Shown: positions 8,135-34,870 of the stretch, one piece after another
How positions within the stretch are numbered: the first letter of the stretch is position 1
How the letters are laid out: the number at the start of each line of letters is the position of its first letter
From: Candidatus Segetimicrobium genomatis
Lineage (GTDB): Bacteria > Sysuimicrobiota > Sysuimicrobiia > Sysuimicrobiales > Kaftiobacteriaceae
Length of the DNA: 35,843 nucleotides
Direction of reading: 5' to 3'
NCBI GenBank assembly: GCA_005888595.1
Contig: VBAL01000091.1
Location: forward strand, 1-35,843
Program-made: the position numbers and the translations under genes
Notes under the pieces: generated by a model
Told to the model about the DNA's origin: nothing
The model's input: the letters and a program-made list of their open reading frames with translations, nothing else
Databases searched by the model: none

Positions 8135-10084
<1,950 letters not shown>

Positions 10085-10089
10085 CCACC

Positions 10090-10134
10090 GGAAACGCGGA
10101 ATCGCGTTTCCCCGTTTCCGCGTTTCCTGCTTCC
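10090..10134. repeat. Octamer inverted array A (GAAACGCG / CGCGTTTC)
   Basis: ggaaacgcggaatcgcgtttccccgtttccgcgtttcctgcttcc; right units cgcgtttc cccgtttc cgcgtttc ctgcttcc (10103-10134); left units gaaacgcg gaatcgcg; arms abut. Confidence 0.75.
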
Positions 10135-12651: not shown

Positions 12652-13325
12652 GTCCCCGCCACTGGCGACACCTCCTTACCGCGCTGGGCGTGATCGGCGC
12701 CACCGTGGCGCTCCATGAGGGAGCGCATGCCCTCGTCACCGCGCGCGCAGGCGGGAAGGTGAAGGAGATCGGCATCGGCTTTGGCCCTCCTCTGTTCCGC
12801 CTCCGGGTCCGCCATCTGCCCGTCGTGGTGCGGATGCTGCCGCTGGGCGGGTACGCCGCGGTGGATCCAGAGCAGATCCCGCCACGCCGCAGGATCCCGA
12901 TGCTGCTGGCCGGCCCCTTGGCCAATATCGCTGCCGGACTGCTGCTGATGCTGGCGTTCCGACGCCATCCGGTGGAGATCCCTACCGACGGCAGGCGCGT
13001 CGGCCTCACCGGGTTCGCGGGTACCCTGGCGGCTCTGGTCCGGGCCGCGGCGCGGGGTCCCGGGTCCATTGCCCGGCTGGCCGGTTCCATGAACGTCGGC
13101 CTGGGCCTCGCGAATCTGCTCCCGGTCTACCCGCTGGACGGCGGCCACGTGGTGATGAGCATCCTGGAAGAGCGCGGCGTTCCGCGCGAGACCCGCATCC
13201 GATTCGCCCGCTGGACTGCTGCCTTGTTCATCATGCTGGCGCGGGCGGCCATGCTCGGCGACCTGCGCCGCCTCGCCGGCAAGGAACCAGGCGACCAAGG
13301 AACCAGGGGACCAGACAACACGTAA
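12600..13325 (+). CDS. Site-2-protease (M50)-like integral membrane metallopeptidase
   Basis: TVALHEGAHALVTARAGG (HExxH), later NLLPVYPLDGGHVVMSILEERG (xPxDGG). True start may be downstream of 12600, since the N-terminal residues are encoded by repeat words. Confidence 0.85.
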   Translation: MREHDAMRSREARITNHGPRHWRHLLTALGVIGATVALHEGAHALVTARAGGKVKEIGIGFGPPLFRLRVRHLPVVVRMLPLGGYAAVDPEQIPPRRRIPMLLAGPLANIAAGLLLMLAFRRHPVEIPTDGRRVGLTGFAGTLAALVRAAARGPGSIARLAGSMNVGLGLANLLPVYPLDGGHVVMSILEERGVPRETRIRFARWTAALFIMLARAAMLGDLRRLAGKEPGDQGTRGPDNT

Positions 13326-13415
13326 GACGCCTCAGATAATTCAGAAGGTCAACTAAATTCAGAAGGTCAACGAGATGCTTACGTGGTCCCCGGGTTCCGT
13401 GGTCCCGAGGTTCCC
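13282..13415. repeat. Octamer inverted array C (GGAACCAN alternating with GGGACCAN)
   Basis: Left 13282-13313 aggaacca ggcgacca aggaacca ggggacca; right 13384-13415 tggtcccc gggttccg tggtcccg aggttccc; 26/32 complementary by eye, with alternating word pattern in both arms. Confidence 0.85.
13338..13371. repeat. 16-bp perfect direct repeat (AATTCAGAAGGTCAAC x2, 18-bp period) inside array C
   Basis: 13338-13353 and 13356-13371 identical; flanked by cacgtaag (13319-13326) / cttacgtg (13378-13385). Confidence 0.9.
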
Positions 13416-28578: not shown

Positions 28579-29997
28579 ATGAAGGTCGAGGTGCGGCAGC
28601 TGCTTGCGCTGACCATCGTCGCCATAGAGTTCACATGGGCCTACCCGTGGGTGCTGCTGGTGAGCGGCACCTTCTACGGGCCGTCGGCGGCGCCGTTGCT
28701 TCCTCCGGCTTCGGCGTTCGCATTGCTGATGCTGGCGTATCTTGCTGTCCGCGCGGCTGTGACGCGGCCGTGGTCGCTGCGCGACACGCGGGTGATGATC
28801 GTTGCGGCCGGATTCCTCAGCGGGATGACTGCGGTGAGGCTTGCGTATTATCCGGGGCGCGGACAGATGGATTTCCGCTGGATCGGGACGCTCCTGCTGG
28901 CCGCGCACGACGCGCTGCCGGCGATCACGCCCGCGGTCATGGCCGCGCTCCTGGCGACGGTGCTGTGGTGGCGCGGCGTGGTGTTGAGTGAGCGGGAGTT
29001 CGGCTACTTCGAAGTTGACCGGGCTTTCCGCCGGGGGATCGGCTGGAGTGTGCTGTTTGTGATTCTGCTGGCAGCCTATGGAGATACTCGCGGCTTCACA
29101 CTCACGGCTGCGGCTCCAGCCTACCTGCTGGCGTTCTTCTCTCTCTGCCTCATGACGCTGTCCATCACCCGGCTGCTGATGTTGTGGGAAGAGACACACG
29201 CCGATCCGGCGCAGGCGCTGGCCGCCAACCGGCACTGGTTGCTGTTGCTCCTCGGAGTCGTCGGCGTAATCTTCGTCTCGGCCGCCGGGCTGGCCACGGC
29301 CGTGCATGTGGAGTTTCGACCTGTGCTGGCCCGGCTGCTGCGCCCGCTGGCCCCCCTGGCGGAGGCACTCTTTTATGCGCTCTTCGCCGTGGCGATGGTG
29401 GTCGCGCGCGCGCTCGTCTTCGTGTTCGCGCGGCTGCCGTTCCGCCGGATGATCTCCCCAACGCCGTCGGCGGCGCCTCCGTCATTTCGTGACCTGTTGA
29501 AGGACTTACCGCCACGACTGGTGAGCGGGGCGCGGTGGGGCATGGTGGCGGTAGCCATCGCCGTTCTGGTTATTCTCGTCGCCATCTCGGTGGTGCGGGC
29601 CCGCCGGAGGATGCGCAGAAACGACGAAGATGAGCGCGAATCGGTATGGTCGAGCCAGCTTGCGCTCAGCGGGTTGGGCGAGGCATGGCGGAGGCTATGG
29701 CGCCGCCAGCGCCTCGTAGGGCGCGATCACGAGGTTGCCGCAGTGGGCGCCATCCGGGCCATCTACCGGGAGATGCTGCGTCTTGGTGCGGCGGCGAACT
29801 CCCCCCGGGCGCGGCATCAGACCCCTCATGAGTATCGCCCGGTGCTGGCCGGCCGCCTGCCGGCGCGTGGAGTGGACATCGAGACCGTTACCGAGGCCTA
29901 CGTGCGGGCACGGTATTCGCCGCGTCTGCCGGAACTGTCCGAGATTTCCGGCGCGCGGGAAGCACTCGAACGCATCAAAACGTCCGCTAATCCTTGA
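28579..29997 (+). CDS. Multi-TM protein with C-terminal DUF4129-like domain
   Basis: Several hydrophobic segments, then VGAIRAIYREMLRLGAAANSPRARHQTPHEYRPVLAGRLPARGVDIETVTEAYVRARYSPR (DUF4129-like); moxR-DUF58 context. Confidence 0.8.
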   Translation: MKVEVRQLLALTIVAIEFTWAYPWVLLVSGTFYGPSAAPLLPPASAFALLMLAYLAVRAAVTRPWSLRDTRVMIVAAGFLSGMTAVRLAYYPGRGQMDFRWIGTLLLAAHDALPAITPAVMAALLATVLWWRGVVLSEREFGYFEVDRAFRRGIGWSVLFVILLAAYGDTRGFTLTAAAPAYLLAFFSLCLMTLSITRLLMLWEETHADPAQALAANRHWLLLLLGVVGVIFVSAAGLATAVHVEFRPVLARLLRPLAPLAEALFYALFAVAMVVARALVFVFARLPFRRMISPTPSAAPPSFRDLLKDLPPRLVSGARWGMVAVAIAVLVILVAISVVRARRRMRRNDEDERESVWSSQLALSGLGEAWRRLWRRQRLVGRDHEVAAVGAIRAIYREMLRLGAAANSPRARHQTPHEYRPVLAGRLPARGVDIETVTEAYVRARYSPRLPELSEISGAREALERIKTSANP

Positions 29998-30002
29998 CAG
30001 TT

Positions 30003-30012
30003 GTGTTATAAT
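30003..30012 (+). promoter_or_regulatory. Extended -10 promoter (TGTGTTATAAT) upstream of T-box leader
   Basis: TG-T-TATAAT at 30004-30012; no well-spaced -35. Confidence 0.55.
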
Positions 30013-30145
30013 TCCGCTTACCAATTCCATAGTGGCCAATGATCGAGAAGAGTACCCGCCGTCGTGTTTCGAAGAGAGCCGCGGGCCGGTGAGAACGCGG
30101 CAGCCAGACGGTGAGGGAATGGACTCGTGAGGCGCGCACCAAACA

Positions 30146-30218
30146 AGTGAAGAGTGATTAGTGAATAGTGAGTACCTGCTGGCAGTCAGCAGTCACTATT
30201 CACCATTCACTATTCACT
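30146..30218. repeat. Heptamer inverted array J inside T-box leader (AGTGAAT / ATTCACT)
   Basis: Left 30146-30173 agtgaag agtgatt agtgaat agtgagt; right 30191-30218 agtcact attcacc attcact attcact; 4+4 units. Confidence 0.93.
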
Positions 30219-30275
30219 GTAGTAGGTTGCGCCGGTCCTCCACCGTAACTCCGGAGTAACGAGCGCCGGCCCAAA

Positions 30276-30344
30276 CTGAAGTTGGAAAGTTGAAAGTTGA
30301 AGAGTTGAATCCAACCCTCCAACTTTCCAACTCTTCAACTCTGC
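30276..30344. repeat. Octamer inverted array K inside T-box leader (GAAAGTT / AACTTTC)
   Basis: Left ctgaagtt ggaaagtt gaaagtt gaagagtt (30276-30306); right aaccctcc aactttcc aactcttc aactctgc (30313-30344). Confidence 0.88.
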
Positions 30345-30387
30345 AGTTGAGGGCGGGAAGCCGGGTGGCACCGCGGGAGTTTCTAGT

Positions 30388-30430
30388 ACCTCTCGCCCCC
30401 TTGATGGGGTGAGAGGTGTTTGTTTTTTGT
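30388..30430 (+). terminator. T-box rho-independent terminator
   Basis: acctctcgcccc (30388-30399) / ggggtgagaggt (30406-30417), then gtttgttttttg. Confidence 0.92.
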
Positions 30431-30456: not shown

Positions 30457-30541
30457 AGAACGCAGATGGCAGAACGCAGCAGGCAGAAAGCATTATCTCA
30501 GGGTAGTCTGCGTTCTGCATTCTGCGCTCTGCGTTCTGTCA
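30457..30541. repeat. Heptamer inverted array L (AGAACGC / TCTGCGT)
   Basis: Left 30457-30491 agaacgc agatggc agaacgc agcaggc agaaagc; right 30507-30541 tctgcgt tctgcat tctgcgc tctgcgt tctgtca; 5+5 units. Confidence 0.93.
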
Positions 30542-30606
30542 GGGGTGGTCGACGTGGCCGCTGAAAGCGAGAAGCCGGAATGGGACTTTTCATCGGGGGC
30601 GAGAGC

Positions 30607-31647
30607 ATGATTGTCGTCATGGAACCTCGCGCGACGCGCGAGCAGATCGATGCCGTCGTCAAGAAGATCCAGGAGGCCAGCCTGGGTACGCATCTGTCGG
30701 TAGGCGTGGAGCGTACCGTCATCGGCGTGGTGGGCGACAGCCACACCAAGGAACTCCTGCGCCAGTCGCTGGAGGCGACATCCGGTGTGGAGAGAGTCGT
30801 CCCCATCCTGCAGCCGTTCAAACTCGTCAGCCGCGAGTTCAAGTCCGATAACACGGTGGTCGACGTCAAAGGCGTCCACTTCGGCGACGGGTCGGTCGCC
30901 GTCATCGCCGGCCCTTGTTCGGTGGAGGGTCTCGAACAGATTATTGCCACGGCGAAGGCGGTGAAGGCAGCGGGCGCAGTGATGCTGCGCGGCGGAGCGT
31001 TCAAACCGCGTACATCGCCCTACTCGTTTCAGGGCCTGGAGGAGGAGGGCCTGCGCTATCTGGCGGAGGCGCGGAAAGAGACGGGCCTGCCGGTGGTCAC
31101 CGAAGCCATGGATGCGTACCAGTTGCAGCTGGTCACGAAATACGCCGACATGATACAGATCGGCGCCCGGAACATGCAGAACTACACGCTTCTGCGGGAG
31201 GCCGGTCGCGCCAAATACCCGGTACTGATCAAACGCGGCCCCAGCGCCACCATCCAAGAACTGCTGCTGGCGACCGAATACGTCATGAACGAGGGCAACT
31301 ACCAGGTGGTGTTGTGCGAACGCGGCATCCGCGGGTTTGACAACTACACGCGCTATCTGCTCGATCTCAGCGCCGTCCCCGTACTCAAGGAACTCTCGCA
31401 CCTGCCCGTGATCATCGATCCCAGCCAGGGGACGGGGAAGCGCAAATACGTCTCGCCTATGTCGCGGGCGGCAGTGGCCGCCGGCGCGGACGGGTTGATC
31501 ATCGAGGTCCATCCCGACCCCGAAAAGGCGCGCAGCGATGGCCCACAGCAGTTGACCCCGGAACATTTTCGGACCTTGATGTCGGAGCTGGACCCGCTGG
31601 CGAAAGCACTCGGACGAAGGATGCAGGCGCCCCTACTAACGCGATGA
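30607..31647 (+). CDS. aroF: 3-deoxy-7-phosphoheptulonate (DAHP) synthase with N-terminal ferredoxin-like domain
   Basis: [21 protein letters not shown] (N-domain), [48 protein letters not shown] cgggggcgag before ATG 30607. Confidence 0.93.
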
Positions 31648-31648
31648 T

Positions 31649-31726
31649 TGCGGACCGTAAATTGACGATTTTGAATTGGCACGCACGTCCCAATTTACAA
31701 TTTACAATTGTCAATTGGCAATCCGC
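31649..31726. repeat. Heptamer inverted array M (GNNAATT / AATTTAC)
   Basis: Left gcggacc gtaaatt gacgatt ttgaatt (31649-31676); right 31692-31726 aatttac aatttac aattgtc aattggc aatccgc. Confidence 0.9.
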
Positions 31727-31741
31727 AGTGGGGGTTTTGTA

Positions 31742-32611
31742 GTGGATCGTCTCGGCACTGTCGGCATCGTTGGTGTAGGCCTCATCGGCGCGACTATTGG
31801 TTTGGCCCTCCGGCAGCGGGCGGTGGCCGGGCAGGTCGTGGGCGTCGACATCGACGCGCAGGCGATTGCGGCGGCGCGCGAGATCGGCGCACTGGACGCC
31901 GGGGGCGCGGACCTGGACGCGCTCCGCCCCGCCGACTTGGTCGTCGTGGCCGTGCCGCCGGACGACGTGGTCAGCACGGCGGTGCAGGCGGCCGCGGTGA
32001 TGAAGCGAGGGAGCATTTTGACCGATGTAGCCAGCACGAAAGCTGAGATCGTGCGCGCGCTGGATGAGAGGCTGGCCGGGCGCGTTCGCTACATCGGCGG
32101 GCATCCCATGGCCGGCTCCGAAGGCCGTGGCGCGCGCATGGCCGATCCCGCATTGCTGTCGGGCCGGCCGTTTCTGTTGACGCCGACCGACCGCACGGAT
32201 CCTGCCGCGGTGTCGACGATGACAGAAGTTGCGGAGCAACTGGGGATGCTGCCGGTGCTGCTGTCGCCGGATGATCACGATGATCTGGTGGCGCAGGTCA
32301 GCCACCTCCCGTACCTGATGGCAGTGGCAGCGGTGGGGGCGGCCACGGACCGGGCGATCGGCATCGGCGGTCCGGCGTTCGGTGGGCTGGGCCGCATCGC
32401 CCGTGGCCCGGTCGAACTGTGGGTCCAGATCTGCCGGAGTAATCGTGCCGCCATCAGGCGGGCGCTGGGACAGTTCCGGCGGGAGCTGGACCGGTTGGAA
32501 CGCGCGATGGAAGGCGAAGAGCCATTGGAGATCCTGTTGCAGCGGAGCCGGCGTCGAGCCCCCGTGGACGGCGTTCCACTCGATAAGCCTCCGCGCAAGT
32601 CGGTAACGTGA
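31742..32611 (+). CDS. tyrA: Prephenate dehydrogenase (GTG start)
   Basis: VGIVGVGLIGATIGLALRQR; DVASTKAEIV; YIGGHPMAGSEGRGARMADP; DDHDDLVAQVSHLPYLMA. Confidence 0.9.
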   Translation: MDRLGTVGIVGVGLIGATIGLALRQRAVAGQVVGVDIDAQAIAAAREIGALDAGGADLDALRPADLVVVAVPPDDVVSTAVQAAAVMKRGSILTDVASTKAEIVRALDERLAGRVRYIGGHPMAGSEGRGARMADPALLSGRPFLLTPTDRTDPAAVSTMTEVAEQLGMLPVLLSPDDHDDLVAQVSHLPYLMAVAAVGAATDRAIGIGGPAFGGLGRIARGPVELWVQICRSNRAAIRRALGQFRRELDRLERAMEGEEPLEILLQRSRRRAPVDGVPLDKPPRKSVT

Positions 32612-34149
32612 TGGCGACGGTACTGGATATCGAACCGACCAAAACTGAGTTTCTCAGCCGCGCCCGCGGCGGCAACCTCATCCCGGTGTCATGCGAGTTG
32701 CCGGCCGACCTGGAAACACCCATCTCCACATTTATGAAGGTCCGCGGGGACGGCGACGCCTTCTTGCTGGAGAGCGTGGAAGGCGGCGAGCGCATCGGCC
32801 GCTATTCCTTCATCGGCAGCCGCCCGATGATGACCATCGTCTCCCGAGGCGATCAGGTGGAGATCCGCGAGGGGCCGCCAGGCGACGGTGCGCGCGCCAG
32901 GCGGGTGGAACGGCAGACGGCTGATGTGCTGGACGTGACCCGCGGCCTTCTCCGCCGACACCGGCCCGTGCCGGATCCTTCGCTGCCCCGGTTCGCCGGC
33001 GGCGCCGTCGGCTACTTCGGGTACGATCTGGTGCGCTCATGGGAGCGGCTGCCCAACCGGCCGGTGGATGACCTGAGCCTGCCGACATGCTATCTGGCCG
33101 TGGCCGATACCGTCGTCATCTTTGATCACGTGCGGCACACGATGAAGATCGTGGCGAACGCGGCCGTGGACGGCGACGGAGGTGCCGCCTACCGGCGTGC
33201 CGTTGAGAGAGTCGAGCAACTCTACGAGCGGCTGCGAACGCCGATCGTGGCGGTCCAGGGCGGCGGCAGGATCCACCCCGCGATGGACACCGACATGCCG
33301 GTGTCCGCGTTCCTCGGGGCCGTCGAGCGTGCCAAGGAGTACATCCGCGCCGGTGACATCTTCCAGGTCGTGCTGTCACGCCGGTTCTCAGCGGTGGTCG
33401 AGGATGTGGACGCGCTGGACATCTACCGTGCGCTGCGCACGGTAAACCCCTCGCCGTATATGTTCTTCCTGGACTTCGAAGACGCGAAAATCATCGGATC
33501 CTCGCCGGAACTGCTGGTGCGCCTGGAAGGCGGCGTCGTGGAATCCCGGCCGCTCGCCGGCACGCGGCCGCGTGGGGATACGGACGAGGATGATCGGGGG
33601 CTGGAAGCGCAGCTGCTGGCCGACGAGAAGGAGCGCGCGGAGCACGTGATGCTGGTGGACCTGGGGCGGAATGACCTGGGCCGGGTCTGTGACTACGGGA
33701 CCGTGCGTGTGACGGATCTGATGAGCGTGGAACGATTCTCGCACGTCATGCATATCGTCTCGGATGTGCAGGGCCGCCTCAGAGCGGACCTGGACGCGAT
33801 TGACGTGTTGCGGGCCTGCTTCCCTGCCGGCACCGTGACCGGCGCACCGAAAGTGCGCGCCATGGAGATTATCGACGAGCTGGAACCGGTTTCGCGTGGC
33901 CCGTATGCCGGCGCGGTCGGCTATCTCGGCTTCTCGGGCAACATGGACACGGCCATCACCATTCGTACCATCGTCATGGCCGGGAACCGTGCCTACGTGC
34001 AGGCCGGCGCCGGGATCGTGGCCGACTCTGTCCCGGAACGCGAGTATGTGGAGACGGTGAACAAAGCCAAGGCACTTGTGAAAGCGATGGAGAGAGTGAA
34101 TCGGAGGAAGGTGGAGGCGCCCCCGCGCGTGGACGCGGATACGCGATAA
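32611..34149 (+). CDS. trpE: Anthranilate synthase component I
   Basis: NPSPYMFFLDFEDAKIIGSSPELLVRLEGGVVESRPLAGTRPRG; FPAGTVTGAPKVRAMEIIDELE; ORF 32608-34149. Confidence 0.95.
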   Translation: MATVLDIEPTKTEFLSRARGGNLIPVSCELPADLETPISTFMKVRGDGDAFLLESVEGGERIGRYSFIGSRPMMTIVSRGDQVEIREGPPGDGARARRVERQTADVLDVTRGLLRRHRPVPDPSLPRFAGGAVGYFGYDLVRSWERLPNRPVDDLSLPTCYLAVADTVVIFDHVRHTMKIVANAAVDGDGGAAYRRAVERVEQLYERLRTPIVAVQGGGRIHPAMDTDMPVSAFLGAVERAKEYIRAGDIFQVVLSRRFSAVVEDVDALDIYRALRTVNPSPYMFFLDFEDAKIIGSSPELLVRLEGGVVESRPLAGTRPRGDTDEDDRGLEAQLLADEKERAEHVMLVDLGRNDLGRVCDYGTVRVTDLMSVERFSHVMHIVSDVQGRLRADLDAIDVLRACFPAGTVTGAPKVRAMEIIDELEPVSRGPYAGAVGYLGFSGNMDTAITIRTIVMAGNRAYVQAGAGIVADSVPEREYVETVNKAKALVKAMERVNRRKVEAPPRVDADTR

Positions 34150-34183
34150 CGTGACCGCGCGACCGCGCGACGGCGCCACGGCC

Positions 34184-34819
<636 letters not shown>

Positions 34820-34870
34820 CTGCGTTCTGCATTCTGCGGTCTGCATTCTGGCATTAGCGGGGAGGCCCGT

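Follow-up and report, generated by a model that had tools for sequence, protein, structure and literature searches.

A dispersed word-array hairpin in the Stem II tip of a predicted Trp-type T-box leader and its turnover among related genomes

In the group I intron of the Nostoc tRNA-Leu(UAA) gene the stem P6b is made from either of two heptanucleotide motifs, Class I (TDNGATT) and Class II (NNTGAGT), whose copy number varies and of which one class has repeatedly been replaced by the other (PMC4476775, PMC3488679). According to the title of an earlier study, short tandemly repeated repetitive (STRR) sequences are also found in the RNase P RNA of heterocystous cyanobacteria (Vioque 1997, title in PMC2858038), and direct heptamer repeats of the word TAACTGA have been described from Beggiatoaceae, Cyanobacteria and Bacteroidetes (PMC4679880).

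The window, i.e. the whole stretch of 35,843 nucleotides that was analysed (Candidatus Segetimicrobium genomatis, genome G000; G numbers denote genomes and L numbers the loci compared), contains an inverted array of heptamers, array J, at 30146–30218, the position given in the initial annotation. There it was described as near-perfect, 28+28 nt long and consisting of 4+4 heptamers; the inverted array stands but its size had to be reduced to arms of 26+26 nt with about 3.7+3.7 words, which are 88% complementary. The 21-nt spacer holds a small hairpin of its own and J folded alone reaches -36.3 kcal/mol. A match to the T-box model RF00230 spans J, in agreement with its earlier placement inside a T-box leader. 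The features of the leader and its operon are:

29994–30012, + strand: likely promoter upstream of the leader, TTGACA and TATAAT 7 nt apart (sequence)
30030–30403, + strand: T-box leader, match to RF00230 (cmscan 69.3 bits, E 6.4e-15, model 1–219)
30120–30122, + strand: predicted specifier codon UGG (Trp), after GAA (CM alignment, operon fit)
30131–30140, + strand: Stem II 5' strand, GGCGCGCACC (CM alignment, folding)
30146–30218, + strand: J, inverted heptamer array, 26+26 nt arms and 21-nt spacer
30146–30171, + strand: left arm of J, AGTGAAT-type heptamers (AGTGAAG AGTGATT AGTGAAT AGTGA)
30193–30218, + strand: right arm of J, complementary heptamers (TCACTAT TCACCAT TCACTAT TCACT)
30221–30224, + strand: S-turn of Stem II, AGTA (CM alignment)
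30225–30233, + strand: Stem II 3' strand, GGTTGCGCC (CM alignment)
30266–30272, + strand: Stem III 5' strand, with the purine string GAGCG before it (sequence, RRRxG-Stem III-AA motif)
30279–30342, + strand: second array, AGTTGRAR octamers, capping Stem III (repeats, folding)
30351–30359, + strand: Stem III 3' strand GGGCGGG, then AA (sequence)
30360–30379, + strand: antiterminator region with the T-box bulge, GCCGGGTGGCACCGCGGGAG (sequence, CM alignment)
30388–30417, + strand: intrinsic terminator hairpin, then a T-run (inverted repeat, 11.95 expected pairs)
30457–30538, + strand: third array, GCAGAACG-type words, between terminator and coding sequence (-43.5 kcal/mol)
30580–31647, + strand: DAHP synthase, aroF-type (Pfam PF00793, PF18152)
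31676–34819, + strand: rest of the operon, prephenate dehydrogenase, trpE and trpG (Pfam)

Since the specifier reads UGG, where the CM alignment places ...GGGAA-UGGACUC against GAAauuca, and the operon encodes DAHP synthase, prephenate dehydrogenase, TrpE and TrpG, the T-box was assigned to the Trp type, and judged by its sequence the leader is a genuine T-box and a predicted tRNA-sensing switch. The motif RRRxG-Stem III-AA belongs to the discriminator (PMC7583486) and is fitted by the GAGCG and AA flanking Stem III in the window, while the bulge within 30360–30379 reads TGGCACC (consensus UGGNACC). The spacing of TTGACA and TATAAT is repeated in the aroF leaders of L014, L015, L016 and L018 and possibly represents an extended -10 promoter with a conserved upstream TTGAC. 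For the DAHP synthase the ATG at 30608 is the more likely start; the enzyme of L015 starts at the equivalent position. With its 69.3 bits the leader lies below the RF00230 gathering score of 93, the CM alignment having opened two large insertions to get past the arrays (a 70-nt insertion between the Stem II strands and a 76-position gap within Stem III). None of the 13 RF00230 matches in G000 reaches the Rfam cut-off, so that in genomes like these standard covariance models recover too few T-boxes. Rfam matches of the arrays to miRNAs and snoRNAs, all below gathering scores, were discarded as chance hits on hairpins.

A gap of 5 nt lies between the 5' strand of Stem II and J, and another of 2 nt between J and the S-turn AGTA. 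J had been suggested to sit where Stem II/III elements would be expected; this was not borne out, as none of Stem II, Stem IIA/B and Stem III is missing and J lengthens Stem II at its distal end. From the positions of the inserts it follows that the arrays extend two outer ends and leave the known contact elements in place, with the exception of the strand facing the S-turn AGTA, which reads CCAAAC in the window versus CCGAAC in L014 (motif CAAAC versus CGAAC), a lost S-turn G that might indicate relaxed function. The hairpin of the third array (30457–30538, -43.5 kcal/mol) would be present in every full-length transcript.

When the leader was folded its energy was 7.1 s.d. below that of dinucleotide shuffles, and the left arm of J had 21.8 expected pairs with the right arm and 0.00 with the rest of the leader. 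The second array likewise pairs with itself in the full leader, and arms of different arrays pair weakly with one another. Cutting out both arrays in silico left the base of Stem II at 6.88 pairs (6.88 with the arrays) and the terminator at 11.94 (11.95 with them). These predictions argue against a large equilibrium effect of the arrays on the leader, kinetics and tRNA lying outside the reach of the folding. An effect of J on gating, proposed earlier, thus found no support in folding, where the pairing of Stem II base and terminator is equal with and without arrays, kinetics being beyond a thermodynamic treatment; the other idea put forward, a structural linker, is supported in that J appears as a peripheral structural insert.

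The words of J form arrays at many loci outside T-boxes in the same genome. J compared with its own genome gave 67 alignments, although a good number of these are fragments of a single array that overlap each other; this upholds the dispersed repeat family of the initial annotation, and BLAST of J against plasmids gave no match. A detector for such arrays called 48 in 345 kb of G000 and 0 in one trinucleotide-Markov shuffle, and at a stricter threshold 41 against 3 in five shuffles, the counts being approximate since some GC-rich coding stretches are called as well. Per 100 kb there are around 12 arrays in G000, 8 in G001, 27 in G002 and 12 in G007, with few or none in Markov shuffles, and the words are many (ACGTTGAA, GGGATTA, ATTGCGG, GCAGAACG, AGTCTTCC and others). 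Overall there was no evidence for enrichment of arrays in T-boxes over other non-coding DNA; T-boxes as hotspots, an idea taken from 58 array-free kb of G004, was dropped when 270 kb of that genome gave 25 stringent calls. Nor could T-box arrays be called more compact, their paired fraction and energy per nt not being clearly different and the gap in length coming partly from how the intervals were cut. RNase P RNA was considered as another RNA with arrays and rejected, since its copies in relatives showed none by eye or with the detector and the longer RNase P RNA insert of G001 is not a word array, and the known T-box aside no other Rfam RNA with arrays was found in 260 kb at gathering scores. 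Within the window the arrays at 10065–10129, 13298–13406 and 34764–34850, and likewise the one in L304, overlap reading frames at their 3' ends, where they may supply stop codons and C-terminal residues.

Comparison of the same aroF leader in relatives revealed both filled and empty sites. In L014 (G001), where the enzyme is 98% identical, all three arrays are found in the same places with 95–100% identity, whereas L015, the same leader as L166 on contig C10 of G007 and with an enzyme 79% identical, aligns along the T-box core with J, the second and the third array almost wholly in gaps, its Stem II tip being just GATAC and its Stem III tip CAAAG. J is not conserved as a canonical Stem II/III, the T-box of the same enzyme being array-free in G005, G006, G007 and G009. 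In another genus, AGTGAAT-type words again form an array at this Stem II tip in the aroF T-box of G004 (L161); an array nearly identical to it (95% over 64 nt, centre included) stands at the same tip of the metG T-box of that genome (L174). Since the centres differ between G004 and the window and G007, of the genus of G004, is empty, independent gains together with copying within G004 are the probable history. No target-site duplication was obvious by eye in the two comparisons made, L007 with L155 and the window with L015.

The comparison with other T-boxes of relatives, proposed earlier as a check, showed that in several T-boxes one and the same site is occupied by differing word arrays. About 40 leaders from G000, G001 and G002, which form one genus, and G004 and G007, which form a second, were read by eye without model scoring; the arrays within them occupy the tip of Stem II, of Stem III or of both stems, and none was seen in Stem I, IIA/B or the antiterminator/terminator. 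Gene names were assigned by reading the downstream sequence by eye and deserve less confidence than the sequences themselves. At the Stem II tip ileS has AGTGAAT in G001 (L149) and TGATTCG in G002 (L143), and ilvE has GGATCTTG-type words in G000 (L013), none in G001 (L156) and GTCGCG-type words in G002 (L152). At the Stem III tip ilvB has CAGTCGCG in G000 (L001) versus AGTTGRAR in G001 (L105) and G002 (L113), serS has none in G000 (L007) versus AGTTGRAR in G001 (L155), and pheS is found in two copy-number states (L002, L144) and without an array in L146 of G002, which has GGGAACGC words in Stem II instead. Arrays are present in valS of L008 and L151 and missing in L148 (G002), alaS differs by one 8-nt word between L010 and L154, and metG has TCGTGAT in L004 versus GTGACTC in L157. 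Between sibling species the same tip is thus, as read from these leaders, occupied by other words, another copy number or nothing.

Some leaders deviate in other ways. The Stem II tips of L247 and L249 (G004) and L146 (G002) contain GGGAAC-type words with few or no complementary words, i.e. half arrays. The ileS T-box of G000 (L012, contig C288) seems to be without the 3' half of Stem I, the specifier and Stem II, all present in L149 of G001, a gap that seems to be either a deletion or an assembly error. Inside the ilvE-type leader, at the place of Stem III, a tRNA-Ala(GGC) gene with encoded CCA was identified, in most such leaders shortly before the antiterminator (L013 1823–1897, L156 1643–1717, L152 236–310, and further in L163, L165, L177 and L280–L291). 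The pattern CCACCA-N5-35-GGGTGGTACCNCGGAG occurs once each in 13 of the 43 genomes of the phylum (reversed control 0), and ARAGORN found a tRNA in all 12 of 12 loci checked. That a riboswitch sensing tRNA should contain a tRNA gene merits a separate study.

The two tips differ in their words, Stem II tips having mostly GTGA words and Stem III tips mostly AGTTG words centred on GGATCC. The zero-loop GGATCC centre of the Stem III arrays, AGWTGRATCCAACYYT, was found at 12 loci in G000, G001 and G002 of which 11 are T-boxes, the twelfth (G001, contig C59) lying at the end of an apparent rsmH gene, and the reversed pattern gave 0; on these counts the GGATCC-centred subtype appears to have spread among T-boxes, GTTGRA arrays in general being far commoner than this subtype. 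The proC T-boxes (L009, L153, L150) have their array split over two stems, with its left arm at the tip of Stem II and its right arm at that of Stem III; predicted folds pair the two arms around IIA/B, and pheS of G007 (L173) has the same split layout. The proC words are ACGTTGRA in G002 versus GTCGCG in G000 and G001, with complementary arms in each; the duplexes of own pairs range from -41.6 to -46.2 kcal/mol and those of swaps between G002 and G000/G001 from -14.9 to -19.6, while the arms of G000 and G001, having words in common, cross-pair. Either the pairing would be selected or a word-changing process would alter both arms together. It could be imagined, though we hold this for rather doubtful, that the arrays are exchangeable cassettes, each tip with its own word type, copied from T-box to T-box, with proC arms bridging Stem II and Stem III and words changing in concert. 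If true, a peripheral helix of a riboswitch would be kept by complementarity alone and receive its sequence from a repeat-generating process.

The best explanation, to which a probability of roughly 0.7 is given, is that J is a dispersed word-array hairpin in a permissive Stem II tip, and that such tips exchange arrays with little effect on gating. It starts from what was observed, i.e. the location and complementarity of the arrays, the empty and refilled sites and the copying within genomes. J would be one copy of a genome-wide class, in which words of 7–8 nt are repeated a few times on one strand and followed by complementary copies, and would have settled in the distal Stem II tip of the Trp-type T-box. 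In the RNA it would fold into a long hairpin that stacks on Stem II at its outer end, past the S-turn by which Stem II contacts the codon-anticodon helix, and the second array would cap Stem III in the same manner. Because the outer ends of both stems are variable, long inserts would be tolerated there, while selection would remove inserts elsewhere in the leader. Arrays would then come and go at such tips, alter by whole words, give way to other words and be copied from one T-box to another in the same genome, copying presumably proceeding by recombination guided by the words and the shared T-box flanks, together with replication slippage. From the folding, regulation is predicted to be nearly unaffected. 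Against tolerance speaks that the proC words differ between species and stay complementary, which is more than passive tolerance predicts, and that the words at the tips are a non-random draw.

These points would suit a recruitment of the arrays, in which the outer hairpins set the order or timing of folding (polymerase pausing, Stem II-Stem III contact) and tune gating, any words that pair being sufficient. The proC arms pairing across IIA/B in the predicted fold with words that differ yet are self-complementary, the same split layout in pheS of G007 and the dominance of one GGATCC-centred type among Stem III arrays are consistent with this, but tips are array-free within the same genus (serS in G000, valS in G002, ilvE in G001), several members of the family are array-free in the T-boxes examined, the equilibrium pairing of Stem II and terminator is the same with or without arrays and a mutation mechanism alone could produce the concerted change of words, so that recruitment is regarded as unlikely.

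Far less probable still is an ordinary variable distal Stem II in which the word structure of J is incidental. The Stem II region does range from about 10 to 200 nt across T-boxes (PMC7583486) and the tips vary among relatives, yet the words of J recur in arrays at many non-T-box loci, the detector separates the genome from its shuffle (48 arrays in 345 kb versus 0), the three arrays are clean extra blocks against L015 and the sequence of J is present elsewhere in the genome and not conserved in the aroF T-boxes of the family. The window and its nearest relatives come from draft or metagenome assemblies. The bin of G000 is fragmented, with 325 contigs and a completeness of 87.8%, and hairpins are difficult to assemble; even so an artefact of the metagenome bin is scarcely credible, since a separate genome (L014, G001) has the three arrays in the same places with 95–100% identity and the pattern was seen again in five genomes.

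The words make it possible to trace how arrays arise, spread and change both arms together. Sibling species with filled, empty and re-filled versions of one riboswitch amount to a natural experiment on where a T-box can accommodate large inserts, a fast-changing genomic repeat being carried here by a conserved regulatory RNA.

When compared with known systems, all core parts of the T-box (RF00230) are present, whereas the two long word-array hairpins inserted and the score below the gathering cut-off set the leader apart from the norm of the family. REP/BIME palindromes and MITEs are likewise dispersed, hairpin-forming elements between genes but their copies share sequence, while here the words differ at most loci and the form of the array is what is common; a REP- or MITE-type mobile element was therefore rejected, different words being found at most loci in place of one conserved sequence. 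The TAACTGA repeats are also intergenic heptamer arrays spread across genomes with a patchy phylogeny (PMC4679880), but consist of one word, are direct and lie just upstream of start codons, in contrast to the many words and inverted, hairpin-forming arrays described here. With the STRR sequences, as far as the cited title tells, the arrays share dispersed short tandem words that also occur inside a structured RNA gene, but here the RNase P RNA of relatives is array-free and the words form inverted arrays of 7–8 nt. The detector made no call in 20 kb of a Nostoc plasmid. The P6b stem of Nostoc shows the same degenerate 7-nt repeats pairing with complementary repeats in a peripheral hairpin of a structured RNA, the same copy changes by whole words and the same swapping of class in one place with the fold kept; it belongs, however, to a ribozyme intron of cyanobacteria with two classes, while the arrays here belong to a tRNA-sensing riboswitch of another phylum, where each RNA offers two tips, the word types are many and siblings can be wholly without arrays. 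In the literature searched, most subscription journals being outside its coverage, no report of word arrays in T-boxes was found. Dispersed tandem words of 7–8 nt, complementary arms and a place in a peripheral hairpin of a structured RNA, the characters of the heptanucleotide-repeat/STRR kind, were all found here, and by this comparison the arrays would belong to a kind already known from the Nostoc intron and STRR, of which the T-box setting probably represents a new variant.
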